From Chondrosia reniformis (taxonomy: Eukaryota; Porifera; Demospongiae; Chondrillida; Chondrillidae), in the NCBI GenBank assembly GCA_947172415.1, contig OX359189.1:580501-644500 (forward strand): 64,000 bases of DNA, given 5' to 3'. The first letter of the stretch is position 1. Each line of letters starts with the position of its first letter. Of this stretch, positions 1 through 41,000 are shown one piece after another. Below the pieces are notes generated by a model that was not told the origin of the DNA, ran no database searches, and saw nothing but the letters and a program-made list of their open reading frames with translations. The translations under genes were made by a program, and so were the position numbers.

Positions 1-3000
1 CTGCCCTCCTTGGACAGGGGTTTGTCTGCCTTACTGTTGGCGGTCTCGCTCTTTGGCATTTGCTTCTCTGCCTTGCTCCCTTCACTTGTAGGAGAGCTGA
101 CCCGAGCTTCTCCTTCCTTCGGAGGGATCTCGTCATCCTCAATGATGCAGTACTCTGAAATGAGACGCCTTGTTAGTGGTGTCTGCTCCTCTTTGATATC
201 GAGTCTTTTGAAGACATTTTCGCTCTTGATAGTGAGACCTGGTTGGAACATGGCTGGACCAATAGGAAAGGACTACTCTTACAGTATGGCTGGACCAATA
301 GGAAAGGACTACTCTTACAGTATGGCTGGACCAATAGGAAAGGACTACTCTTACAGTATGGCTGGACCAATAGGAAAGGACTACTCTTACAGTATGGCTG
401 GACCAATAGGAAAGGACTACTCTTACAGTATGGCTGGACCAATAGGAAAGGACTACTCTTACAGTATGGCTGGACCAATAGGAAAGGACTACTCTTACAG
501 TATGGCTGGACCAATAGGAAAGGACTACAGTGAAACCTCTCAATAACGGACAAGTTGGTGCAAAGGGACTTGTCCACTATTCGGAGGTTGTCCTTTACTG
601 GGAGGTTTTCATAATAAAAGCTTTATATATGTATACAATGCTATCTGAAACGGGTTCAGCCGTACGTACATTACTTCATTAGTACATTCAAGATTAGTCG
701 ATAGGACGCTTTACTTCGTTAACAGCTCCATCAATACTCGGTGAGAGGCGTCCCTCGTTATGTACGGAAATCGTTCAGTTTTATCTGACTGCAACCGTAG
801 CTAGATAAGGCCCTCTTTGTCCGTTAATAGAGTTTTTTTGTATTACAAAACGTCCTTGAGATCGGGCAGAGTGTCTGTTATCCGGAATTTGGAGGTTGTC
901 CGCTATTTGGGAGTTGCTAATGTACTAATTGTATACAAAAATAAGTTGGTACATTGCATGCTGTCCGTAATACGGAGACTGTCCGCTATTGGGAGTGTCC
1001 GTTAATAGAGGTTTTACTGTACTCTTACACTGCAAGTCATAAGTTTATTTCCTAACAGTGTGAATGTAATAGTCATCACTAAAATAAATAGGATGCTAGG
1101 CAGTTTAATGTAAGTATGGTTTAGCAGATAAATAGTGTCTAAAATGATAAGACAAAAGAGAATAGAAATGACTATGAACCAAAGTGTTAAATGCAGTCAG
1201 TGATAAACAGTGGGATCCAAATGGAATACATTACAAACAAGATTTACCTCCAACAAGATTCCAAGTCCTTATGCTCCCATCTGAGTGGCTGCAACCACAT
1301 GTAAACAATATGCATAAACAAGATGAATAAACATCAACAAGATGAATAAATAAATAAGATGCATAAATACAGACAGGGGATGACAACACTGTCGTTACTT
1401 GTGTAAGGCAGGCAGGCAGGCTACCAACTCACCCTGTAACAACAATGTCAGCACCATAGCGCTTGTTACCATGTTCACCCCACTTCCCGCCATTCAACTT
1501 CAAAGGCTGCAACAAACAAGTAAACAATGTAGCAGACACACCCACATAGTACAGACACACCCATTTAGGGCAGACACACCCATTTAGGGCAGACACACCC
1601 ATTTAGGGCAGACACACCCATTTAGGGCAGACACACCCATTTAGGGCAGAGACAACTGATTAGCGTAAGTCATACCTCCTATGTTATATACACTGTTGGT
1701 GCTTAACACAAGTGTGCAAGGCTATAGGTCAAATTAAGTACCTGTTTATTAATCTTTTCCTTCACTTCCTGCTTAGACTTGAGTGATGTAATGGTAGATA
1801 AGATGTCATCAGACACATTACTAAAGACACTTATGGTAGTGATGTTGGTATAGTGGAAATCTAAAGTGTGAGCAATGGTCAGTTGGGAGTGCCTCTTGTC
1901 CGTCAAATCAAAAGCTAGCAGCTCCTTCTCGCACAGCACCACAAGAGCATGAGGGTCTTGAGGCTCTGAGGGACGAGATGGATTGACAACTTCAAAAAAG
2001 ACTATTTTATAGTCCGAGATTAATCTCCTTACATAACACATCAATAGAATCCCTTTGAAATTAATTAGTTATCATATTTTATCTGATATGGCAAAGCACT
2101 CTCAGAATACATACAAATTGATATTTTGTAATATTCCCAAACCATGAAAAATCTGAAAAATCTTTGCATGATTCCTAAATACCAAAACCTACTGTTTTTA
2201 TCATCTAACAGAAAGTTAAATTATGAGCTGTACAACAGAAATGTGCAGCTCAGTGTAGAAGAAGAAAGAGAAGGACTATGTTCCCATCCAAAGCTATATA
2301 TTGTGTGCGTCTAGGCAAAGGAAATATGGCGTCTTTGATAATTAATACACTTACCATCTAAATAAGGTGATTGGTCAATAATTACAAAATCCTTTATAGG
2401 ACTGTCCAGCGTGAAATGGGAACCACCAGATTTGGTATTAAAGATTCCAATTTGTCTAGCAAGCGGTTTGTCATCGTGGTACACGCCCCCACCAGCTGTA
2501 ATAATCAAGGGAACTCCCCTAAATGGAAGAGACAGGGAAAGGGTGACAAACACTCCTAAGAAGGAGAGAGTGGCTATTAAAAGGTCCACAGAGATGAGAT
2601 TACTGATCAGAGATGAGATTACTGATCAGATGATGATGATGGTACATTCCTCGGAGGAATCGTTGTCTGGTTCAGTGAAGTACACTCAGAAAGAGAGTAT
2701 TGCCATGAGTCAGTTGTAGATAACTCACTTTATTTTTACCTGACTAATTAACAAAATAATTGTACGTACGTATATATATATGTGCCTCTTACTCTTTTCT
2801 CTTGATCCACTGGATTCTCTTAATCTCCTTGCAGGGGGTGGTACTCTGTTTCTTAGGGGCTTTGAGGCCTGCAGCCAAACACCATACAGATAGGTACACA
2901 CCCACCCACTGAGGATTAATATATATACCACACCCACCCACTGAGGATTAATATATATGCCACACCCACCCACTGAGGATTAATATATATGCCACACCCA

Positions 3001-6000
3001 CCCACTGAGGATTAATATATATGCCACACCCACCCACTGAGGATTAATATATATGCCACACCCACCCACTGAGGATTAATATATATGCCACACCCACCCA
3101 CTGAAGATTAATATATATGCCACACCCACCCACTGAGGATTAATATATATGCCACACCCACCCACTGAGGATTAATATATATGCCACACCCACCCACTGA
3201 GGATTAATATATATGCCACACCCACCCACTGAGGATTAATATATATGCCACACCCACCCACTGAGGATTAATATATATGCCACACCCACCAACTGAGGAT
3301 TAATATAAATGCCACACCCACCCACTGAGGATTAATATATATGCCACACCCACCCACTGAGGATTAATATATAAATGCCACACCCACCCACTGAGGATTA
3401 ATATATATGCCACACCCACCAACTGAGGATTATTATATATGCCACACCCACCATTTAAACAAGGCTTGTACATGGCATCAGGTTTGGACGTGGTTTTGAG
3501 GTTCCAAGCACACATTGTACCATCAGTGTAGCCGGCATAGAAGAGCTTTCCTAGGTCTCCCCAACACAGTGAAGACAGCCTCTGAAAGAGACGGAATAAA
3601 CAATTTCCTTTACTCAGCTCAGCAGAAAGAAGAGAACAATATATTACTTTCCTAGATGAATAACTTGGTGTATATGTACATTCACATAAAGCTTATATTA
3701 GATAGGTTTGGATAAAGATAAGTAATTTGTGTATCTCCATCTCAAGTGTGGCTAAATGAATCTCTAAAGTTGTGGCAATGGAGTTGATGGAACTTATGGA
3801 GGAGGCAAAGTGTCCCCCCACCTTGTCAATCTGGTATTTCTGAACAATGCCTTTCTGTAAGCTCCATAATGCCACTAAACCATCAGCCAATCCAATCAGT
3901 ACCTACAGAGCACATGCATTACTTGTACATTTACATACATTAGTGGTCTGTAATGTACATTAGTACAAAATGTCACACACGAATACATACTTTATCCTCG
4001 TCCCATGGATTGGTCAAAATGTCTACTACATAACCTTGTCTGAATCCACCACACCTGAATAAGTACAAAAAATTATTATAGGGATTTACCCATAATGTGT
4101 TTCCATGGCATCAAATTCAAACACTTTAATGACTCACATCTTGTTCCATGGAATAGTATACCCAGCCAATTGCATTGTATTGAGGTTAAGAATATATACA
4201 TCACCTCCGGCACTTCCAATAAATGCCCAGCATGAGTTGTACTGCACTGAAAAGCATGTCGGCCTGGAAAATAGATTTAACTACATTAGGGGACACAGCC
4301 TAAAAAGATTAACTTGTGAAAGAAAAAAGAAATTTAAAATAATGATACAAATATCACATTGTTAATGGCAACTTGATTACTAAACAGTTAGTATCATACT
4401 TGGAGTTCTGAGCTGATGCAAACTCCAACTGGCCAATTATGTGAGGCAATTTGCTCTCACTCTGTCCCTTCTCCTCCCTCTCAGGACACTCCCAAAGATA
4501 GATCACAGAGTTGCTGCACAGTGTTAGCAACTGAGCCTGCACACACAACAACAGCCAACCTTAAAGATTCACTGTAACTAGATATCACAAACTGAAACCA
4601 CAAGTGTTTAAATATTACCTATTTCCATCTGTTATTGAAAGATTACCAACAGAAATCAAGTACTACCCAAGGGGGTGCACCTGGGGTGGTTTGGTATACT
4701 GTATACTACCCAAGGGGGTGCACCTGGGGTGGTTTGGTATACTGTATACTACCCAAGGGGGTACACCTGGGGAGGTTTGGTATATTGTTCAAAATGGTAC
4801 CTTAGTAGAGATGAAAGCCATCTTGAGGACCTCCGGATTGTCAGGATGATAGAAGTGGCACTCCATCCCTGGTTTACCTAATGTGGACTTTAGGTTAAGG
4901 AACTGACTCACATCAGTCCGTGTCAAAACAGCTGCTGAAATGATAATTTAATCAAAACACACACCACACACTACCGAGATTCCTGTGACTCTGGTACACT
5001 AACAAGACAAGCTCACTGGGAAACTGCAACTCAAGCAGATTGCTCTTCCTTCCTCAATTATCAAGAAGAAGACCTCCCTCTACCATCTGCCCTGACCCTC
5101 CCACAATGTCCCATCCCACCCAACCTCCCATCCCACCCAACCTCCCTCTACCATCTGCCCTGACCCTCCCACAATGTCCCATCCCACCCAACCTCCCTCT
5201 ACCATCTGCCCTGACCCTCCCACAATGTCCCATCCCACCCAACCTCCCTCTACCATCTGCCCTGACCCTCCCACAATGTCCCATCCCACCCAACCTCCCT
5301 CTACCAGAAATATCTCGAGGCTGGGGGATGGAGCATACGTGGGTAACTATACTTTACAGTGACAAAGGTATAATTACTTCTTCAGTAGTTGATTGCTTAA
5401 CCCAAATTATTGTAATATTATAATAATCTGGAAATATAAAACCATTTAAAGTAACTGAAATAAAGGGTGTTAAATTTAACACAATATTTAGCATAACTTG
5501 GCCCCATTGTAAGAAGTAAAATATGTCTTAGCAGAATGGACTCTCAATAGCACGATGTAGATACTGTCCCATACACCTTAATTACTGACTATCACAATCC
5601 TATCACCAGATCGGAATGGCAAGCTTGTCTAACCTGTTTATTGATAAATATTTGGCAAAGTGTGGAAATACCCAGAAATGGACTATATAGTATCTCGTAC
5701 TGCATCTGTAGACGTATTCCACTCGCAGTCACTTGAGATTGAAATGGAAATGTACAAGAACACCTCTGTGTAGATTATTGTCATTAGCTGTATACAGGTA
5801 CATAGCAGACTGATATAGGGAATTAGATGATGGAAAAGTATGTATATATATCTAAGAGGATTCCTGAAGTCTGCATATATTTGAAGGATCCTGTACACTT
5901 CCAGAAAGACTTCCAGAAAGACTTCCAGAAAGACTTCCAGAACGACTTCCAGAAAGACTTCCAGAAAGACTTCCAGGGTCACTGATGAAGGGTGGCATTC

Positions 6001-8854
6001 CTAGAAAGGACACATCAGCTTTACCATTTAGAAGTATAAGTAGAATTCAATTAATTAGTTTAAGAATTTAACTAGTTCATTTTATAATTAATTAGTTATT
6101 CAATAAATTAGTAGAAACAAATCTTAATGGTGACCCATAACTACAACTCCTTGTACAAAGCCATTGTCAAAGGTAACACTAATCAATCAATATTGTCAAC
6201 TTATGAGATATTAATCACGTGTTCAATAACTTCAAAGTGAAGACGGTTGCTATTTCAACAATAAGTGATTATTAGTACAATAACACATATTTTAGGATGT
6301 ACGTAATGAAATAATCAAGGCATAACTTAGTTTGTAGGGTAAGGGGGCGTGACTTAGTTTGTAGGGTAAGGAGGCGTGACTTAGTTTGTAGGGTAAGGAG
6401 GCGTGACTTAGTTTGTAGGGTAAGGAGGCGTGACTTAGTTTGTAGGGTAAGGAGGCATGACCTAGTTTGTAGGGTAAGGAGGCGTGACCTACCTAGCTTG
6501 TAGGGTAAGGAGGCGTGACCTACCTAGCTTGTAGGGTAAGGAGGCGTGACCTACCTAGCTTGTAGGGTAAGGAGGCGTGACCTACCTAGCTTGTAGGGTA
6601 AGGAGGCGTGACCTACCTAGCTTGTAGGGTAAGGAGGCGTGACCTACCTAGCTTGTAGGGTAAGGAGGCGTGACCTACCTAGCTTGTAGGGTAAGGAGGC
6701 GTGACCTACCTAGTTTGTAGGGTAAGGAGGCATGACCTACCTAGCTTGTAGGGTAAGGAGGCGTGACCTACCTAGTTTGTAGGGTAAGGAGGCATGACCT
6801 ACCTAGCTTGTAGGGTAAGGAGGCGTGACCTACCTAGTTTGTAGGGTAAGGAGGCATGACCTAGTTTGTAGGATAAGAAGTTAAGGTATTAAAAGGATAT
6901 ATCTTGACCATTCCATGAAAGTTTCCAATAGCTATTAGCCCCTGCTGAGTGTCGGCAGCTATACAGGTGGGTAGCTCAGGAAATCCAAACCGAAAGGTCT
7001 AAGGAAAGAAAGACAATGCCATCAAATACTTGCTGAATAGAACACTCCTTGAACTGCATCCAGTGAAATAAAATTAAAACGGATGTGAAAAGCAAGGAGT
7101 CTGAAAAGTAGCGAGGTCAAACTGGAGTTCCTAGGAAGACGAATGACAGGAAAATCAGATGCGATTCAAAGGAAACCATTGAGTGTATTCTTAGCAATTC
7201 AAGCACGTCTCAGTGCACATGCAGCTAGGGGTGCAAGGGTCAGAGTACAAAGGTGGAGCTCTGATAAATTTTACTCTCCAAAAAACTGTAAAACTATAAA
7301 AAAAACTATTTAAATATGTATTTTTATGCAACTACCATGTTACTACACTAATTATTGTATATGGTAAAGTAATACAATTAAACAAACTGACAATTGAAGA
7401 CTTTTCTTTCAGCAACTACTTTCAAAGTGGGTACTAAGTATTGGCAACGCAAGGGTCTGACCATCACCTAGTATACTACAGTGAGTTGTCATAGTTACCA
7501 GACATTAGGATATTTCCTTAATGTCACCATAAACAAGTTATACGACCAAAACACTACAAGCTATACAGTACAATACACTCCGCTACCGTCTGAAAATTAG
7601 CACCAATCAACCTTGACTTACAAAACATAACACCAGCCTAGACTACATATACGAGTGTGAGGCTAACTATATGAGTGTGAGGCAAACTATATGAGTGTGA
7701 GGCTAACTATATGAGTGTGAGGTTAACTATATGAGTGTGAGGCTAACTATATGAGTGTGAGGCAAACTATATGAGTGTGAGGTTAACTATATGAGTGTGA
7801 GGCAAACTATATGAGTGTGAGGTTAACTATATGAGTGTGAGGCAAACTATATGAGTGTGAGGTTAACTATATGAGTGTGAGGCAAACTATATGAGTGTGA
7901 GGTTAACTATACGAGTGTGAGGCAAACTATATGAGTGTGAGGTTAACTATATGAGTGTGAGGCTAACTATATGAGGAACTATAAAGAGGAATAGTACATG
8001 AATAATATTTCTGTTTATACGGTTGATGCACATTTGAGGCCAAGTAAACACAATTAGACTAAAACACCAATTTCCTAAATTATAAGCAGAGAAGACCTAC
8101 GGAGCTTTGGATGAGGATACAGTCTCTAACCAACGTTTCCTCCTTTCTACACTAGACCACCTCCTTCTACGTCTATAATGCCTAGAGAGTAGATATTAAC
8201 TGCAATGTCCCCTTTCACCTTATCAACTAAGTTTGGACACTCAAGGTAACTTTCTAAAAGGATTTTAATGTACTTTAAATGGATCCACATTTAATTATCA
8301 CCAAACACTACTAATCTCGTGTGCCCACATCATTAATATTGTGGATACAAGAGAAGCTTTATAAGAATACTAGTCTGTACTATTATATTGGGATTGGTAA
8401 AGTTTGATTTAATGCATTATCATTACGGAGAGATTAATGAAAATACAGTTATGTACAAACAACATGTAATAAATGAAGTACAAATTACTACTGCAGAAAC
8501 TCCTAATACCCTTGAACTGAATCTTACATGCTTCGGAGGGCACACAAAATAGTGAAACGTCTATTTTTCAATTTGATACTAGCTAAAGACACTTTCTGTT
8601 TTATTTTAATTGTTCCATAAAATATCAGTCACTATCATATATCTGTTCAATAGGACCTTCATTTATTATTTGTCATTTCTACGAACTACTATTTTACGCG
8701 TTGATTTGTGGATATACGATGTGCGCTTCGTATTCAACCATTTTTAACGTCTTGGTCGACTTACCTTTTCCAGGCCAAATTCGTCTGCACCTAAATGGTC
8801 AGGTATTTTTTCCAGATTCTCCCCTATAAACAGTTTGCGCATAAATTGATCCAT
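1..8854 (-). CDS. Tomosyn/Lgl-family WD40 protein (STXBP5-like), 5' complete, 3' cut by window
   Basis: Family role: WD40-propeller proteins that bind syntaxin/SNAREs and regulate exocytosis (tomosyn) or polarity (Lgl). Coding exons, 5' to 3': 8854-8765, 6998-6901, 4882-4801, 4536-4400, 4263-4138, 4054-3991, 3902-3822, 3581-3452, 2868-2793, 2518-2355, 1989-1742, 1506-1433, 1288-1248, 238-1 (last one runs off the edge). All phases join, giving about 549 residues. Family blocks are visible: GFPELPTCIAADTQQGLIAI, KILGKPGMECHFYH, AGYTIPWNKM, VLIGLADGLVALWSL, DPHALVVLCEKELLAFDL and a WPINGG-like LNGGKWG block followed by VVTGHSDGSIRTWNL. The GYxxxWNK segment favours tomosyn over Lgl. The N-terminus is short (30 codons in exon 1). 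The SNARE-like tail, if present, lies outside. The last exon (charged, Lys/Glu-rich) is the least certain. Intron 2 is a U12 AT-AC intron. It shares a 317-bp divergent promoter region with IFT88. Confidence 0.85.
250..528 (+). repeat. 36-bp minisatellite, about 7.8 copies
   Basis: Nearly perfect copies of a unit starting ATGGCTGGACCAATAGGAAA. In the last visible intron of the tomosyn-like gene, ending about 12 bp from its acceptor. Because 36 is a multiple of 3, all frames stay open and produce false ORFs. Confidence 0.97.
1552..1648 (+). repeat. 19-bp minisatellite, 5 copies
   Basis: Unit CAGACACACCCATTTAGGG in intron 11 of the tomosyn-like gene. Confidence 0.95.
2890..3450 (+). repeat. 32-bp minisatellite, about 17 copies
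   Basis: Unit CACACCCACCCACTGAGGAT plus TAATATATATGC. Fills intron 8 of the tomosyn-like gene and supplies that intron's donor site. Confidence 0.97.
4661..4785 (+). repeat. 43-bp minisatellite, about 3 copies
   Basis: Unit beginning TACTACCCAAGGGGGTGCAC, in intron 3 of the tomosyn-like gene. Confidence 0.93.
5080..5305 (+). repeat. 51-bp minisatellite, about 4 copies
   Basis: Pyrimidine-rich unit beginning CCCTCTACCATCTGCCCTGA, inside the U12 AT-AC intron. Confidence 0.95.
5898..5977 (+). repeat. 12-bp minisatellite, about 6.5 copies
   Basis: Unit ACTTCCAGAAAG inside the U12 AT-AC intron; one copy has C for A. Confidence 0.93.
6326..6880 (+). repeat. 27/31-bp minisatellite, about 18 copies
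   Basis: Unit TAGGGTAAGGAGGCGTGACC with a 4-bp length variant (ACCTACCTAG versus ACTTAG). Variants are clustered, showing local spread. It ends about 20 bp from the AT-AC donor. Confidence 0.96.
7646..7972 (+). repeat. 20-bp minisatellite, about 16 copies
   Basis: Unit ACTATATGAGTGTGAGGCTA with GCTA/GCAA/GTTA variants alternating. Intron 1 of the tomosyn-like gene. Confidence 0.96.
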
Positions 8855-9171
8855 TCTCGAGGTCCGTCTTCCTTAGCTCACTTGAACCATATTTCCGACA
8901 TTGAGTGGCAAATAGCTCTTCCTTACGAACTTATGAGCCAGCGAATTCATTTACTGTGAACAATATAAATGATTACTGTGCATAAGATTTAGTATAAGAA
9001 GATTTCCCCTCTTACATCATATAAAACGAGTCATGTGATTACGCTTACAGCATGTGACTCGTACCCAGTCCCAACTTCCGTAAAAATGTCTGATGTCCGC
9101 CATTTTGTTTACTGTTTCTTTGTAGCTATGGTTACTAGACTTAAAATGGCCGCCTCCTCTTTGTAAAAGCA
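8855..9171. promoter_or_regulatory. Divergent promoter between tomosyn-like gene and IFT88, with X-box-like site
   Basis: Only 317 bp separate the two start codons, so 5' UTRs and promoters must share this stretch. At 9122-9135 the near-palindrome GTAGCTATGGTTAC resembles the RFX X-box (GTTGCCATGGAAAC-type), matching at about 10 of 14 positions. It lies about 37 bp before the IFT88 start. RFX control of IFT genes is known in animals; its use here is inferred. Confidence 0.4.
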
Positions 9172-12100
9172 ATGAGTGCAATGAATCAGCTTCGCCTAGC
9201 TCCCGATGATGAAGGAGATCTTTACTCTGGTTTCGAATTTAGTGATAATTTAATTTATGTAAGCAATAGAGTATAGTCGATTTAGGCGACTTATCCATAT
9301 TCAATTATTCTGTTTTAAGGATCTCGATGAAGATGCTGGCTTACAGCAAGCCATTCAGACAAGCTATGGACAGAGGCCTCCAATACCAGTACGAATGCGT
9401 GAAATAGACATAGTCACTTTGTCTTAAATGTTCTGTTCGTTCTCATCTAGGCAGCTACGGGTAACAGAATGCAGCAGGTGGGATCTGTTAATGTTAGTAA
9501 GATTTGTGTCTCTTAGTTGGATATTTAGTTATCCAAGGGAAATCCCCTTTGTTCCTTGATCTCATGTATCAAGTGTAGCTGCATGGCACTTGAACAGATG
9601 TTCTTTTGTGTTCTTTTACAGAGAGGGGCCAGTCGGGGAGGAAGACTAATGACAGGGGTTGCCTCTGTAAGTAGGAGCTACATAATTTAATGTCTCACTC
9701 ATCTCAACCATTAATGTACTGTCTGTAGGACTCTGGTCAGGCTCGACCTATGACCTCTATCAGGGGGGCGGGGTTTGCCGGTGGTGAGCATGTACACATA
9801 TACTGTTATACATTCATTGTGTCATACGTGAGCTGTGTCAAGTGATGCACCTCAACTTTATATCAGGTGTGTCGCAACAGTTTGATCCTCTGAAGCAGAC
9901 AGCCTCAAAAGGGACAGCCCCTCCACTTGAGAAACCAGAAGAGACACCAGAGGACCTGATCAAGCAGATGGAGAAGAAGGTTAACAGGTTGATAGAGGAC
10001 AGTGTTGTAGCAGCCGGCGATGGTAACTACCAGCTGGTCAGTTCCTCCCTGTAGATGCACATCAGTGTGTACCTGTAGTGACACGTCTGTAGGCTCTGGA
10101 CAAGGCTAAGGAATCTGGGAGGAAGGAGAGGCAACTCTGTCGACAGAAGGAACAGAATGGCATGAGCGATCAAATCAACTTGGATCTCACCTATGCTGTA
10201 CGACAATGACTCACTGACCACCTGTAGCGTGCACTGACTGCCTGTAGCGTGCACCGACTACAGTGTAACCTGTATGAATGGTTACCTATCTAGGACAGTC
10301 ACTTGCTTAAAGTGGCCACTTTAATTAGGTCACAAAGTTTTACACTACATACATACATATAGATTGACATTACCTCATTGTACAAAGTGCATACATAATG
10401 TACGTACGTAGGTACTGCTCAACCTAGCCATCCAGTTTCAGGCCAGTCACATGTTCACGGACGCCCTCAACACCTACCTGCTGATTGTTAAGAACAAAAT
10501 GTTCAGTAACAGCGCTCGTCTGAGGATTAACATGGGAAACATATACTACGAGCAGAGAAAGTATCCTCAAAGTATCAAAATGTACAGAATGGCTCTGGAC
10601 CAGATACAGAACACACACTCCATCTTAAGGTGAGCTTGTCTTCAAATGCTAAAATGACATGTTACTGGTTGAACAGCAAAATAGATACATTAATACTCTA
10701 CCAATAATTATTCTAACTGCATTGAACTTATTATTTGCACGGTTCATCTTCTGACTTCTTGGTAGGTTGAAGATCCTTCAGAATATTGGTGCCGTGTTTA
10801 TAAAGATGGGTCAGTATACGGATGCCATATCCACTTATGAACACATTATGAGTGAAAAGCCAGACTTCAAAACAGGTTTGTGCTTACATACTGATTCATA
10901 CCCTAGCTACTGGCTAGTATGAGATAGGGTCATTTGACTACACTGGACACCTCTTGTATGTAAAATGAACTTAATTAAGACCCGGCATTAGGTCCATACA
11001 TCCCAGATACCAATCAATATTGTATACAAAATTACTGGCTGTAAAATAGTGCACCTACGTACCTACGTACATGAAAAGTCACCTCTCTAGGATGATCACT
11101 TGCTTAAGGTGACCACTTCAATTGAGCCCCAGAAATCATGCTACGAATGTTTATGCTTTTAAACTTGTGTACTGGGCTGCAGGTCTCAACCTGATCCTTT
11201 GCTATTGCGCAATGCGAGACAGAGAGAAGCTCAAGTCTGGCTTCAAGAGGCTGCTTGAGATCCCTCCTCCTGTGGATGATGACGACAGATATGTTGTTGC
11301 TGATGTAAGTGCGTATGTATAGTCTAGAAATATATAGCAATTGTAGTTTTGATAAAGGCTGCAATACAAGCTCAGGGCAAAATGGAAAAAAAGACAAAAA
11401 ATAGTATTTAGTCTTAGTGACTAAGTCACATGATGATCACATGATAATCAGGTGCAGTACTAATTCCTAAGTCTCTATAGGACTATTATCCAATAGTGTA
11501 CTTCATATAGAGGCAAAGGCAGTAGATGAGCCTTTAAAAGATAGTTTGACAACATCCATAAAAGGTAGAAGAGATCTTACTCTATCAAGTGATTGTCTCT
11601 TGCAGGAAGATGACCCTCAGCAGAGGCTTCTGGTTGAGATTATCAAAGATGACAGCCTGAGGAAGATTGAGGTGGAAGAGAAGGAGAAGGCAGAGCACTG
11701 CATCCTTACGTCTGCCAAGCTGATGGCGTCCATTATTCACAGCAATTTTGCAGCTGGTTTTGATTGGTGCATAGAGTGTGTCTCCACCTCACCATATGCA
11801 GAGCTGGCCAGCGAGCTAGAGATAGCAAAGGCCGTCACATTTCTCAAGGAGAGAGAGTTTCAGAAGGCCATCGAAACCTTGAAGGACATTGAGAGGAAGG
11901 GAACCAAAATGGAGGGGGCTGCTGCTACCAATCTCTCCTTCATATACTACCTGGTATGACTGCCTTGAAGGTAGCTCTCCCATAATGTGTGATAGTGTGA
12001 CTGTTTGGTCTCATCTCAGGAAGGGGAGGTACAGCAGGCTGAAAAGTATGCTTGTAAAGCAGTCTCCAAGGATACTTACAATCCCTATGGTAGGTATTTA

Positions 12101-15100
12101 AGAGCCTATGCTGGTAAATAGGGAAACTTTTAAGAGCCCACTCTATTAGCTGCCTAATGTATAAGAGCATAGGCTATTATTTGACGTTTAAGAGCCTAGG
12201 CTGTTAACTGTGTGACTAACCATTTCTTTACTGTAAAGCATCTGTATGTATCTACCACACTGTATGTATTTAAAAGTAGGGAGACTGCATAATTAAATTT
12301 GGTAATTGGATTAGACACTTCATTAACCAATTAATTAGTAGAGTAATACACCTCATACTGTAAGTGCCCTGGGCTTTTGTCTGTAGGACTATTAATACAG
12401 TTTTCTATATATATCTCTTCAAACGTTTTAAAGGATAAACTTTTGAGTGAATTACATTAAGGATTATAGAATAGACATGCATATGTTGTTATCAAGAAAT
12501 ATTAATGCTCTGGTCCTCGTTAGTGAATACATTATATGTAGTAACTGATATGCATCTTAGGAATTCATAAATTGTGTTAATGGTGCTCAGTACACCATCA
12601 GATTTAATTATGTGTGGTTTACCTCAATTGATATAACAAGTGATCAAATGATATAGTTTAAAATGATTAATGATTTCCCACTCCTACAATACAGTATATG
12701 TATACCTACCCATATATATGTACATATGTAAAATCTATTACCATTATTATTATTTCTGTACATCTAGCTCTAGTCAATAAGGGTAACTGTCTGTTTGCTG
12801 TTGAACAGTATGAAAAGGCACGGGAGTGTTATCAAGAAGCTCTTGAGTAAGCAATGGGAACCACAAGTGTATTGTCACTTTACCATATGTAATCTTGTAA
12901 TCTGATTGGCTGATGGTTTTCTGTAAATCAATTGGCTGGTGATCTTCTTTAATTTGATTGGCTGATGGTCTTGTGTAATTTAATTGGTTGGTGATTTTAA
13001 TCTGTAAATCATATCCTTTGTATAAAAAGTCTTAGCATATTTCAATATGTACATAAATGGACAAGAGTCTGACCAAAATGCCTACGTATGTCTAACATAT
13101 GTTTCATTTGATGTCAACTGGAGACCAACATCTGTTGTAGATAACCTGTAGTGAATGTTGTAGTTAGGTAAATTCATGAGCTGTATCTCTACAAAGGCTG
13201 ATCTAATTATGCTACCAGTTCATAGTACTTAAAATGAATTCCTTTGATATGTTGCTAGGATACCGGGATGACGCACAAAAGAATGTTAAATGACCATATA
13301 TGGTCATAATAGAGACCACTGTGACCCCAATGTCTATAACAACATGATTGTCCAGTAGCCTGATGGTTGGGAGAAGTCCTCCCACTCGCCCAGCCAATGT
13401 AGTCCTAAATATATTCTAGTGTGCCTACAATAACAAGTGAAATGAGCAGTACACAATTGGTATTGGGTGAATGCATGCTTTGTGGTACATGAACAGATAA
13501 AGGTGGACAATGGAACGTGAATTCCTTTCAAGCCCCTCTTTAGCTGGTTCATTCTTCAATATTAGCAGCTAAAGTCATAGCTGAACCAGTTTGTGTGTAC
13601 TTTCCATGACATGGATACAGTGCTAAGTGCGTGTTCTTCAGTGACCTTTTGTGTACCTTTGAAATGTAGTGAATGGAATTGTGTCATGTAGTGAATGGAG
13701 TTGTGTCATGTAGTGAATGGAGTTGTGTCATGTAGTGAATGGAGTTGTGTCATGTAGTGAATGGAGTTGTGTCATGTAGTGAATGGAGTTGTGTCATGTA
13801 GTGAGATGTTTTTGTGTGTACAGGATTGAGGCATCATGTTCTGAAGCTCGATTCAATCTTGGGCTGGTACATAAGAAGATGTCGCGGTTTGATGAAGCTT
13901 TAGATTGCTTCCAAAAGCTACACACAATTCTGAGATCTTCTCCTCAAGTCGTCTACCACATAGCAGATTGGTGAGTGTCAACACCTTGTCACAACCCTGT
14001 GTCCCTGTCACTTGTCACTTGTCTATATACTGTAGCTTTGACAAGCTGTACAACTTTAACCAGGCGACCGACTGGTTCCTCAAGATCCTCTCCCTCACAC
14101 CCACAGACCCTCAGGTGCTTCAGAGGATGGCAGACATGTTTGATGCGGACGGAGACAAGCCCCAGGCCTACCATTATTATTCCGAGGTTTGACTACAGTC
14201 GTCACTCCCACCCAGTCTTGATCAACACTAGCTAATCCTAGGAACTGAGATTTCGGGCTGTGTATGCATATAGTAGAGTTTCACTACAATATGCTTGTAT
14301 GTATACTTGAAGACATATAATGAATGTTTAACTGTACAAAAATACACAATGGCAAATAAGCAGAACGAAAATAGTTTATGTACATATACAATAGGTAGCC
14401 ATTATTTTTAATTGAGAATAAATACAAGTATTCTATTTTATATTTCAATTTCCAAATTTTATAATTCTCAATATTCTAAGAGTATGTATTTCAAAGCAAC
14501 TGAAATGGATAGCCTGGATAATTGGTGATATTGTATTTCTTGTTCTTTAGTCCTTTCGGTACGACCCTGCCAATATTGATGTCATATCATGGCTGGGAGC
14601 CTATTTCATGGAGGCCCAGTTGTCAGACAAGGCTGTTCATTATTTTGAGAGAGCTGCATTACTACAGTGAGTGTTGTTCTAAGTCCTGTGTGTATAAGAA
14701 TAACTTTAAAACACTATTTTGTTATAGATATGCCTCTTTTGTATATTTATGAGGTAATACCAATGCATATAGACATATATATCTAGTTCACAGCCTTTCT
14801 GTGTTCCTAAAATAGTAATTCTACATCTGGTCTACTAGTGGTGGCCATTTAGTGTTTGATGTGGGAGATTTGGGTCAATTAGTGTAACTATGTACTTGTA
14901 CCTATATTGAACCTTACCTTATAAGGAGTGTTATTCCTGTATGTATCTAATGTGTTCCTACTTATGTATAGGCCCAATGAGATCAACTGGCACATTCTAG
15001 TGGCTAGCTGTCACAGGAAGACTGGTGAGCCAATCAGAACATTCCAACTGGCAACAGCTGCTGTCGAGTGTGACACATGTCTCTGTGAAATATTTTGTGA

Positions 15101-33596: not shown

Positions 33597-34563
33597 AATT
33601 TTAAGTATATAGGAAATGTGATTGCCTATATTATTGTTTTAAATTCAACTATTATGTTTACCATGCAAATTTATAATTATATTTATCATAATATTTAATG
33701 TAATGGATAAAAATACAATTATATATATTAACAATTCCTTAGAGCTTATTGAATAATTCTGGTATACAAACTTATATGTATGAGGTGAACATGAACATAA
33801 AAATTTCAAAACTCCCATATGATTGAGGAAAATTTAAAATTTCTAGCGTTATGAAAAAAAAAAAAAAGCGCGTCCCAAGTGTGTTTGGATACTCAGTGGG
33901 TGGTTCCAAAGTAATCGCGATTTGCTGACGATAAGAAAAAAAGGAAAAAAACAGCGTTTGGACCGGTTTCCAAATCTTTTACAATAATCAGCGAAAAAAG
34001 ACCAGTCACGTTAGCCAGCAGAGACTGCTGTTACCGTCGAGCACCACGAGGAGGTGTGACTTGGATTTTGCTCGACGCAGGGAGTTCACGTTTACCATCC
34101 ACAATGCGAGCCGTCCTTCCATCGCTGGTCGTCTGGGGCCAGGATCGTTGGTAACGCCTAACTCGTGCAGTTTCAGCTTTGGTAGTCACAGAGTGACAGA
34201 ACCGGCCTTATCCCTCCCCGGGTTCCGTTGTATCGATAAATCGATAATTGGTGAGCACATCCCCATGGCACCAACCGATACAGGGCAGCTACGGAACCTA
34301 GACACTACCAAGCCAACGAGTAAGGACTTACTCCCTTACCCGAGGCTCCACGCTGGCAGGCCTGAATGGTCATGTTAAAATGGACTATTTATACTCAACT
34401 CTGTGTGATGAAAGTGAAAAAAGAGAAAAAAAACGATTGCGCTCGTAGTCGATCCAACTTTTGGCGTATTTGGTGGTATGGTATGCTTGCTTCTCGCTTC
34501 ACTGTACTACCGGTGCTCTTATGAATGACCAAATATTAACTTGTATATATATACAAAAGTGGT
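33597..34563. other. Intergenic, AT-rich then GC-richer repeat-like sequence
   Basis: 33597-33850 is AT-rich 3' flank of the helicase gene. 33850-34440 has A-runs around a GC-richer block unlike its neighbours. A 105-codon frame (34061-34378) has no recognisable protein character. Probably remnant repeat DNA; identity unknown. Confidence 0.4.
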
Positions 34564-38013: not shown

Positions 38014-41000
38014 TTATATCAAATTTTCATGTACTAGAAATTGGTAAATAAATGTTGCACGTTTCTTGTTCATTCCAACAACTATTTTTTTGCTGGTTAA
38101 TCTTGAAGGAATTTCATTGGATAATGGTCTTAGCAGTACATTGGCAAATACTGATGCTACAAGGTAGGAAAATATATATATATAATACCACCAAAAGTAG
38201 TTGTATATTGAGTGTCTAAAATATAATATTCCTTGACTATATCAGAAGTGCATCCTAACTAAATAGCATTGTATGAGAACAGGGCAGGGGCGGCGGCAGA
38301 GGGGGGGCATAGTCCCTTCATTCTGAAGTTTAGCTCAGGCTCCCACTAATGAGAGACCTTTCAACAAATTCAGTAGTAGTAGTGTAGTGGTAGCAAAAAA
38401 GGTTTGCCACCCAGTTTCATGAAAGATGGAGCCCCCCACTTTTAAGGAGCTGCTGCCGCCCCTGAAGGGTCTTCCGTGCTTTTCTCAATTGGGCCAGACA
38501 TGCGGCTATTTCTGGAACAGCCAGACTTACATAAATGTCTTTTATAGAAATCATTATTCAAGATAAAAACTGAGGTCAAACACATGTGAACAGGAGGCCA
38601 AGAGTGGAATCACATACACATCAATAACGTATATATACAGCAAACAAATGATTGGATCTTCACTAGTTGCCATGGATACAAGAATAGCCTATGACACATT
38701 CACGTGGTGTTCCACTATTAGACTGAAATATCTTCCTATGAAACTTAGATATAAATCTGAGAATGAATTGGCTTGATGAAGTGATGTATGGAGCTTAAAT
38801 CTTGTGATAATATTAATCATATTTGTAATCATTCAGAATTAAAGACTCCACTTACCAACTATTTTTGGCTCACTCTTATTTGTATCTGAATTCTGTAAAA
38901 TTTCCTTTAAAAACACAATTATGGAAACAAAACTGTTTCTATGAATTTCAGGTAGTTCATGGAGTACCTGAAGAGAAATACAAGTAAACATTTGTCAAAA
39001 CATTTTCTGCATAATTCATTTGAAAGAGGCCCTATTTGGGGGTGGGAGGGGGGCTAACACAAATAATCAAAAATAGTCATCAAAAATGCAAAACATTTCA
39101 TAAAATGAATCAATTTACATATAGTGTTATTTACATATGCATGCCATCAAAATATACAACTACAAACCTGCCGACAGAGAACTGCATTGTTTGAGGCTTC
39201 TATACACTTTGCTTGAAGATTGTGAGGAATTATTGGTTCAGCCAGGGACTCTAGGAATAGTAAGAGGGCTTGAGCTACTGAATGAATAGATCCAGCTGGC
39301 AACACAAGTCAAGGAATAGAACCAGAATTGGAAGTGGACAACTATTTTACCAAGACTGAAAGAGTTGTCATGACTACTATCAAAAATAACACAATGGTGG
39401 AAATGAACATATTCCTCACAAGAGACTAGGAATGAACTGAAGCATTTGAGCCAAAGTGATTGGGTTCTATTTGATTGGTTGGCTATTGGATTGATTTGAT
39501 TGGTTAACTTTTGGATTGATTTGATTGGTTGGTCGGTTGGTATGTACATACAGTAGAACGTCGATTATCCGAACGTCAATTATACGAATCGTTGATTATC
39601 CGAACGTCGTCGCAAGATGCTGACTCAGCAAAATATGGCCGCCAACCAACGGAAGAGAACTATTAAGTGTAGACCAGAAGCTTGAGATCTGCAAGCGATT
39701 GAAGAAAGTGGCTACTATTACTTAACTTTCGAAGGAATTGAATATTGGGAAGTCGACGAGTTGTGATATAAAGCGAAATGAAGAAAAATTCGTCACTTTT
39801 ATTGAGAAACTGCTTGCTGTTTGATTATACGTACTTTTCGATTTTACGTACAGGCCAATCCCCAATTAGTTCGGATAATCGACGTTCTACTGTAGATAGG
39901 ATATTAGAAGGATACGCATAGCTTTGTTTGGCATATTATAATTATCCCCTTCATCTAGGAACTCTCTAATCTGTTCAATCTCTGAGTCCTTTCCTTGGGT
40001 GATAAACAGGCCTTCTTCATTGAAACCATCACTTAAGAGGCGTGAAGTCAATTGCCAAATCTCATAAGGTGAACCTGATCCACTGGACAACCTCTCCGGA
40101 TGCTTGTACTGTGCAGACAGAGTAACACGTGTGATAACATCACATGACTATCACATGTCCACCACATGGCTATCACATGTCCGCCACATGGCTATCACAT
40201 GTCCGCCACATGGCTATCACATGTCCACCACATGGCTATCACATGACCACTGCATGCCTACAATATACGATACTAACCAACTCAGCTATTTCCTGTTGAG
40301 GAACACTCCTCACTCCGCCCCTTGAGGCCATGTAACGTAGTACCCCAAGAGAAGCTCCAAAAGTGGAGAGTTGATAATTGCCATGAACAGTAATCTGTTA
40401 AAACACTGTTAAGAAATTTACACATAGACAACAAATGAAATTACTGACAACATAGTATGTCTTATTCACCCCATCCACCACAACTCTTGGAAGGGGCAAT
40501 ATTTCTGAGAGGGGGGGGGATACAAAGTAGTCCTTCCCATTCTCCAGGTGGAGCACCAGAATGTCCTCCAGTTTGTCCACACCCTTCGCAATCTCAGGAG
40601 CTATGTCAATGTTTACCTGAGCTATGAATACAAGCTTCTCAAAGTTCCCTAAAAACAGAAAATATTAAACTGCAAAAATGGACATTAAAGCAACAGTTAA
40701 TTACTAAAAATCATAGATAATTTTGAGATGAAAATAGATCCTTAAGAAGACGTAATACCTGTAAAATTGTTAAGATAGGCTTCTGTTTAACTATGAATTT
40801 TTGTGAAGATTTTAATTATTAAGAGCATTAAATTATTAGGATATACAGTAAATAAGTATTCTGGCGATAAATACAATCTCAACAAGTGATACAATCTCCT
40901 CTTAATGTTATCGCTATTCAAGTCCTTGATTGACCAAGGGAAGGGGAAGTACCTGGCCAAATGGAACCTTCTATAGGCCGTACTGTCAGCCAGGGATGGC

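Follow-up and report, generated by a model that had tools for sequence, protein, structure and literature searches.

A very probable U12-type AT-AC intron in tomosyn of the demosponge Chondrosia reniformis, with sequence matches to the minor splicing machinery

We analyzed a 64,000-nucleotide stretch of the Chondrosia reniformis genome (C1:580501-644500), referred to here as the window. Its left part carries a gene that we modelled as seven minus-strand exons, from 8854 to 3822, with an open frame of 226 residues and introns of 1766, 2018, 264, 136, 83, 88 and 240 nt (n = 7); the features are listed in Table 1. The N-terminus of the protein contains an LGL-type WD40 block, which was matched by human LLGL1 (E 5.6e-16, residues 23 to 214) and LLGL2 (E 1.5e-14, residues 20 to 217). 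A Pfam search of the same region gave eight weak families, which were beta-propeller matches, none of them above the cut-off. About 3.5 kb beyond the left window edge we found a same-strand reading frame (C1:576634-577023) ending in an R-SNARE motif; the exons in between were only partly modelled. This frame was weak by score (Pfam Synaptobrevin 24.3 bits, just below the cut-off of 26.4), and its best match among solved structures was m-tomosyn (PDB 1urq, E 0.061), while VAMP2 gave E 0.42. LLGL proteins are not known to carry a C-terminal R-SNARE motif. Because of this, together with the R-SNARE motif downstream and m-tomosyn as top structural match, the gene is best called tomosyn (STXBP5), a name that fits the sequence better than LLGL.

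Table 1. Positions of the tomosyn exons and of the elements of its second intron in the window
Feature	Position	Strand	Evidence
Tomosyn exon 1, with start codon (model)	8765..8854	-	
Tomosyn exon 2, ending in codon phase 2 (AT/)	6901..6998	-	
Tomosyn exon 3, completes the split codon, reads ILGKPGMECH...	4801..4882	-	
Tomosyn exon 4	4400..4536	-	
Tomosyn exon 5	4138..4263	-	
Tomosyn exon 6	3991..4054	-	
Tomosyn exon 7; gene appears to extend leftwards beyond the window edge	3822..3902	-	
Predicted AT-AC U12-type intron, 2,018 nt, phase 2	4883..6900	-	sequence elements and protein junction
U12-type 5' splice site ATATCCTTTT	6891..6900	-	7 pairs with U11 5' end
U12-type branch site TTCCTTAAC, branch A at 4895	4894..4902	-	7 pairs with U12 snRNA
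3' terminus AC, 12 nt past branch A (branch A to terminal C)	4883..4884	-	
Minisatellite, 31-nt unit, 17.9 copies, within the AT-AC intron	6328..6863	.	
Minisatellite, 12-nt unit, 6.7 copies, within the AT-AC intron	5897..5976	.	
Minisatellite, 51-nt unit (3.5 copies, 5126-5306) and 17-nt sub-unit row from 5109, within the AT-AC intron	5109..5306	.	

A plus-strand gene probably starts at window position 9172, head-to-head with tomosyn and approximately 320 bases from it; its first residues we take to be IFT88-like. Further along the window, at 34004-34076 (-), lies an HDV-like self-cleaving ribozyme. It matches RF02682 with 47 bits, above the cut-off of 44 (E 1.5e-5 at window scale), and the same region gave sub-threshold matches to RF00094 and RF01787. 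Minisatellites are dense in positions 1-9200, where there are 13 tandem-repeat rows, in part overlapping, whose units are between 12 and 51 nt long.

The intron between exons 2 and 3 carries the elements of the U12 class. On the minus strand, exon sequence ...GGTCAAGAT is followed at 6900 by ATATCCTTTT, which matches the donor consensus RTATCCTT, and the downstream exon begins with ATTAGGTAAACC at 4882. The branch site near the 3' end matches TTCCTTRAY. There is no polypyrimidine tract upstream of the 3' splice site: AACCTAAAGTCCAC scored -2.6, against 0.8 to 6.2 for the six U2 introns of the gene, in a simple pyrimidine scheme. Joining the flanking exons (98 + 82 nt) keeps the frame and gives ...HGMVKILGKPGMECH...; the junction splits a codon after two bases and restores K-I-L-G-K-P-G at a block that reads K-I-Y-G-A-P-G in LLGL1 and K-L-Y-G-A-P-G in LLGL2. 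Further, we scored all open, in-frame AT-AC, GC-AG and GT-AG pairs with a donor first base at 6960-6851 and a next exon start at 4950-4831, using human splice-site frequencies that were not fitted and scoring the product against human LLGL1/2. Among these 37 pairs the AT-AC pair ranked first (140), followed by another AT-AC pair (131), and the best GT-AG pair reached 117. In a looser scan, described below, the donor could also be paired with an AC 598 nt downstream through a TGCCTTGAT branch (locus L020).

We estimated how often such elements arise by chance. The window has two copies of the donor ATATCCTTTT, against 0.31 expected, and one of the branch TTCCTTAAC, against 0.68; single motifs are therefore not special on their own. 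A loose donor and branch with a matching terminus within 3 kb was found twice, in tomosyn and in an OCRL-like gene, compared with 0.42 per random sequence of 64 kb, so the motif pair alone would not prove an intron. The exact consensus pair was found in 0 of 100 random sequences built with the dinucleotide frequencies of the window. Because of this result and the fit to a conserved protein junction, we consider the intron call firm, and the intron is a good example of a class already known. With P120 intron F and the intron in domain-I segment-1 of Nav/Cav genes, which are U12 AT-AC introns of animals, it has in common the ATATCCTTT donor, a TTCCTTRAC branch at short distance and the AC end (consensus elements as in an excerpt of PMC6259924). 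It differs from them in host gene and species, in its length of 2 kb and in its three minisatellites, which make up approximately 40% of it.

The sequence-only reading had described a U12 AT-AC intron at 4883-6900 in a tomosyn-like gene, with a spliced product matching the conserved block, and this was confirmed: donor, branch and terminal AC at 12 nt are all as read, the in-frame product is the best of the 37 pairs against human LLGL1/2, and the N-terminal LLGL1/LLGL2 match and the R-SNARE frame with m-tomosyn as best match support the gene name. It had also placed the intron, at about 2 kb, among the longest of the locus, with three minisatellites inside. It is in fact the longest of the seven modelled, and tandem rows of 51-nt, 12-nt and 31-nt units were located within it. 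The statement that AT-AC U12 introns are rare in animals holds per genome, but AT-AC introns make up approximately 26% of human minor introns (excerpt of PMC10639083).

Other U12-type introns were found both in the window and elsewhere. The OCRL/INPP5B-like gene carries a GT-AG U12-type intron at 39296-39915 (-), of 620 nt and phase 1, which reads GTATCCTTCT...TTCCTTGACTTGTGTTGCCAG with the branch TTCCTTGAC; its spliced product matches human OCRL across the junction (E 7.5e-15). A pattern for short U12 introns gave 7 matches genome-wide and 6 for the reversed control, which is no excess. Four of the seven loci (L007, L010, L012 and L013) had a matching first base and terminus, and in three of the four a protein family spanned the junction. 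These were an AT-AC U12-type intron of 81 nt in a NUBP/CFD1-like gene (PDB CFD1, E 1e-26), an AT-AC U12-type intron of 83 nt in SHQ1 (Pfam E 1.6e-14; the PDB search gave none) and a GT-AG U12-type intron of 81 nt in CLP1 (PDB match, E 9e-23). L013 was dropped from the supported set, having no protein family across its junction, and L008, L009 and L011 were dropped for lack of a matching donor/terminus pair. A looser scan of 276,324 bases of loci returned eight rows, namely L007, L010, L012, L013, the LLGL-a gene described below and three with a TGCCTTGAT branch (L068, L034 and L020). A JNK-like locus was considered as a possible U12 host; its coding strand carries none of the U12 branch motif forms that we looked for. 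A calcium-channel domain I query found no genomic match and was uninformative.

In total six U12-type introns have protein support, three AT-AC (tomosyn, NUBP-like and SHQ1) and three GT-AG (LLGL-a, OCRL-like and CLP1), and all of them keep TATCCTT. Five were found through the donor motif and LLGL-a through protein homology alone; the set therefore leaves room for other donor types.

We searched the genome with the block of human LLGL1 and obtained two LGL-family genes in tandem on C4 (8.233-8.243 Mb; loci L034 and L033), approximately 9 kb apart on the same strand. LLGL-a is a clear LGL match, with 51% over 39 residues at E 3.2e-8. LLGL-b, a putative member of the family, is a weak one, with a best single-exon E of 0.0148 to the tomosyn query and 0.115 to LLGL1. 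Weak matches were also obtained at C9:118570 (tomosyn query) and at C4:2843202 and C9:80720 (LLGL1 query). In both tandem genes an intron interrupts the codon that is split in tomosyn, likewise in phase 2. That of LLGL-a, GT/GTATCCTTGA...GGCCTTAACGATTAATAAG/A, is a GT-AG U12-type intron of 299 nt, with the product ELRVYGRPGVEF; its branch, CCTTAAC, covers 7 of the 9 consensus bases. That of LLGL-b, GT/GTAAGTAGAG...GTGTGTAG with the acceptor end TTGTGTGTGTAG/G, is an ordinary U2-type intron of 223 nt, and its spliced product is EVRVLGRPGVEL. By eye, a second intron position is common to tomosyn and LLGL-a and absent from LLGL-b.

Since codon and phase are the same, the intron position is probably older than the split of the three LGL-family genes, unless insertion was repeated at one site. 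In the accepted view introns convert from the U12 to the U2 type (excerpts of PMC3584512 and PMC10639083), and therefore the ancestral intron was probably of U12 type. We infer that the common ancestor of the three paralogues may have had one U12-type intron, either AT-AC or GT-AG, which would have become AT-AC U12 in tomosyn, GT-AG U12 in LLGL-a and U2 in LLGL-b. AT-AC U12, GT-AG U12 and U2 introns at one homologous position have been seen in nature, as known from U12 subtype switching and U12-to-U2 conversion (excerpt of PMC3584512), but here the three states occur in paralogues of one genome.

Parts of the minor spliceosome were sought in 117,379,552 bases on 15 contigs, where each snRNA search scored the best 39 to 48 candidates. 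One genomic match each was found for U12 (92.1 bits), U11 (89.2 bits) and U6atac (101.9 bits), all above the Rfam cut-off, and one for U4atac (46.8 bits, E 3.5e-5), below the cut-off of 53. U4atac and U6atac form a perfect 14-bp helix in stem II (-26.3 kcal/mol). The sequence of this stem departs from the Rfam consensus in both RNAs, the pattern that joint change of the two genes would give. The 5' end of U11 can form 7 pairs with the tomosyn 5' splice site; U12 likewise has 7 pairs with the branch site, where the A at 4895 stays unpaired. An upstream word, AACCACAAGTGTTT, is common to the four minor snRNA genes and starts at -56 to -62 (14/14 in U6atac, U11 and U4atac, 12/14 in U12). A match of at least 12/14 was found in 102 of 20,000 random 120-base stretches of the window, a rate partly raised because the window itself contains one perfect copy. 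Among the proteins, CENATAC gave five collinear exon matches on C1; depletion of CENATAC in human cells leads to retention of AT-AN minor introns (excerpt of PMC8280824). PDCD7 (PF16021) had no match in the genome and none in the controls of the search either, so this result is uninformative.

The window contains two copies of AACCACAAGTGTTT with at most one mismatch, compared with 0.07 expected: a perfect one inside the third intron of tomosyn, at 4596-4609 (+), and one with a single mismatch at 12859-12872 (+). No Rfam family was found beside the copy at 4596-4609.

These matches suggest how the tomosyn intron could be processed. At the 5' splice site U11 would read CCUUUU; at the branch site U12 would pair with UUCCUU, leaving the branch A free. 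The U4atac/U6atac.U5 tri-snRNP would then join, U6atac would take over from U11 and the intron would be removed. Chondrosia reniformis thus appears, as far as its genome sequence can tell, to possess minor splicing machinery. The search for the four snRNAs that the sequence-only reading had suggested supported it in that U11, U12 and U6atac lie above the cut-off and U4atac, below it, nevertheless forms a perfect helix with U6atac. Its claim that the intron, if real, proves that this lineage keeps a working minor spliceosome is too strong, as DNA alone cannot show splicing and the sole U6atac found has an altered box.

This U6atac lies at C13:6345854-6345975. Its bases 12-14 are GCC, compared with AAG in the Rfam consensus, and bases 1-29 have no other difference. 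In other respects it resembles U6atac RF00619, with a full-length match, partners for stems I and II in U4atac and an intact GAGAGAAGGUUAGCA. Facing positions 4-9 of the tomosyn intron, its box forms 4 of 6 pairs, with C6 and U7 mismatched, while the consensus box forms all 6; incomplete complementarity is a property of the U6atac found and not of the intron. Because all six U12 introns carry TATCCTT, C6 stands opposite C14 and U7 opposite C13 in each of them. We calculated pairing energies for three (tomosyn, LLGL-a and OCRL-like): -0.9, -3.7 and -0.9 kcal/mol for the sponge box against -6.6, -5.5 and -5.1 for the consensus, and -4.8, -5.5 and -7.8 kcal/mol against -6.9, -10.2 and -7.8 when longer stretches could pair outside the box. 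Pairing outside the box narrows the gap to consensus U6atac and closes it for the OCRL-like intron. When this U6atac was folded alone, bases 12-16 paired with the UUCGG region in a helix. A CC5/6GG splice-site mutant was partly rescued in human cells by U6atac GG14/15CC alone, and nearly fully with an added U11 suppressor (excerpt of PMC4980772), from which it follows that human U6atac G14/G15 face C5/C6 of the splice site. G14, which is changed in the sponge, is one of the two bases altered in those assays (same excerpt).

Tentatively, and with distinctly less than even confidence, we read this variant as the sole working U6atac, one without complementarity to C6/U7 alongside canonical U11 and U12-type 5' splice sites. 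That the working U6atac is another gene, a canonical copy in an assembly gap, on the other haplotype or in a stretch that the searches missed, is a serious contender, although it too falls somewhat short of an even chance. The assembly is incomplete (42 contigs in 14 scaffolds, primary k-mer completeness 69.43%; excerpt of PMC12181767), and the U6atac family search took just 46 of its 5,444 first-look candidates through to scoring. On the other hand, several features of the gene found speak against a dead copy: an intact upstream element (14/14), a TATA-like TTTAAATA, a 3' T run and a perfect 14-bp partner in U4atac. The family search found no second U6atac, and a pattern search that allowed up to 3 mismatches in the canonical box gave only the U6atac found and one place unrecognised by any Rfam model. 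As a control we sought U6atac of other species, which gave 0 matches in genome contigs and 1 in viral contigs, on a contig without an Rfam family.

The altered box also bears on how the tomosyn intron is spliced. It is conceivable, but improbable, that the intron is removed inefficiently, or is for the most part retained, and acts as a brake on tomosyn expression, the minor spliceosome being weakened by the U6atac change. The box is mismatched to the 5' splice site, and in a human minigene minor GT-AG sites win over AT-AC sites in direct competition (excerpt of PMC8280824). However, with the intron retained the frame would pass from K-I into YPFNTLTSYPTN and then reach a stop codon, and TATCCTT sites are kept in six genes, a persistence which suggests continued selection. 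We consider it very unlikely that the major spliceosome removes the gap by GT-AG splicing, from a GT at 6908 to an AG whose last base is 4888. This in-frame, open reading is the best GT-AG pair, and its acceptor score of 0.7 is just below the range of the six U2 introns of the gene, but its donor ATG/GTCAAG scores -2.4, compared with -0.6, 0.7, 2.2, 4.0, 4.7 and 8.5 for those introns (human frequencies). Its product, HGM-STLGKPG, has S-T in place of V-K-I, where LLGL1/2 have VKI and IKL, and it explains neither the exact U12 elements nor the U12 intron at the same position in LLGL-a. Removal of the AT-AC intron by the major (U2) spliceosome, which does act on some AT-AC introns in humans (excerpt of PMC8280824), is hardly credible, given that the U12 branch site lies at 12 nt, that the donor is identical to the U12 consensus and that there is no pyrimidine tract. 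The best explanation, which we hold with high confidence, is a real AT-AC U12-type intron in Chondrosia reniformis tomosyn, presumably removed by the minor spliceosome.

In the literature that we searched, we found no report of U12-type introns in sponges, although earlier reports may exist elsewhere, and nothing that links STXBP5 or LLGL1 to U12-type or minor introns or Amphimedon to U12-type introns. The available excerpts of PMC10639083, PMC2846911 and PMC7367187 contain no mention of 'sponge' or 'Porifera'. Transcriptome data went into the published annotation of C. reniformis (excerpt of PMC12181767).

If the variant U6atac is indeed the only working one, the exchange of U11 for U6atac would depend on a smaller number of base pairs, on proteins or on a different RNA contact. 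This would be contrary to the human rule that pairing of U6atac with the 5' splice site is required, and the need for this pairing would become testable in a natural variant. In the tomosyn/LGL trio, a single genome shows the same intron position in three different states. The tomosyn intron, the four snRNA matches, CENATAC and the six protein-supported U12-type introns together point to a minor-splicing system, at the level of sequence, in a demosponge.
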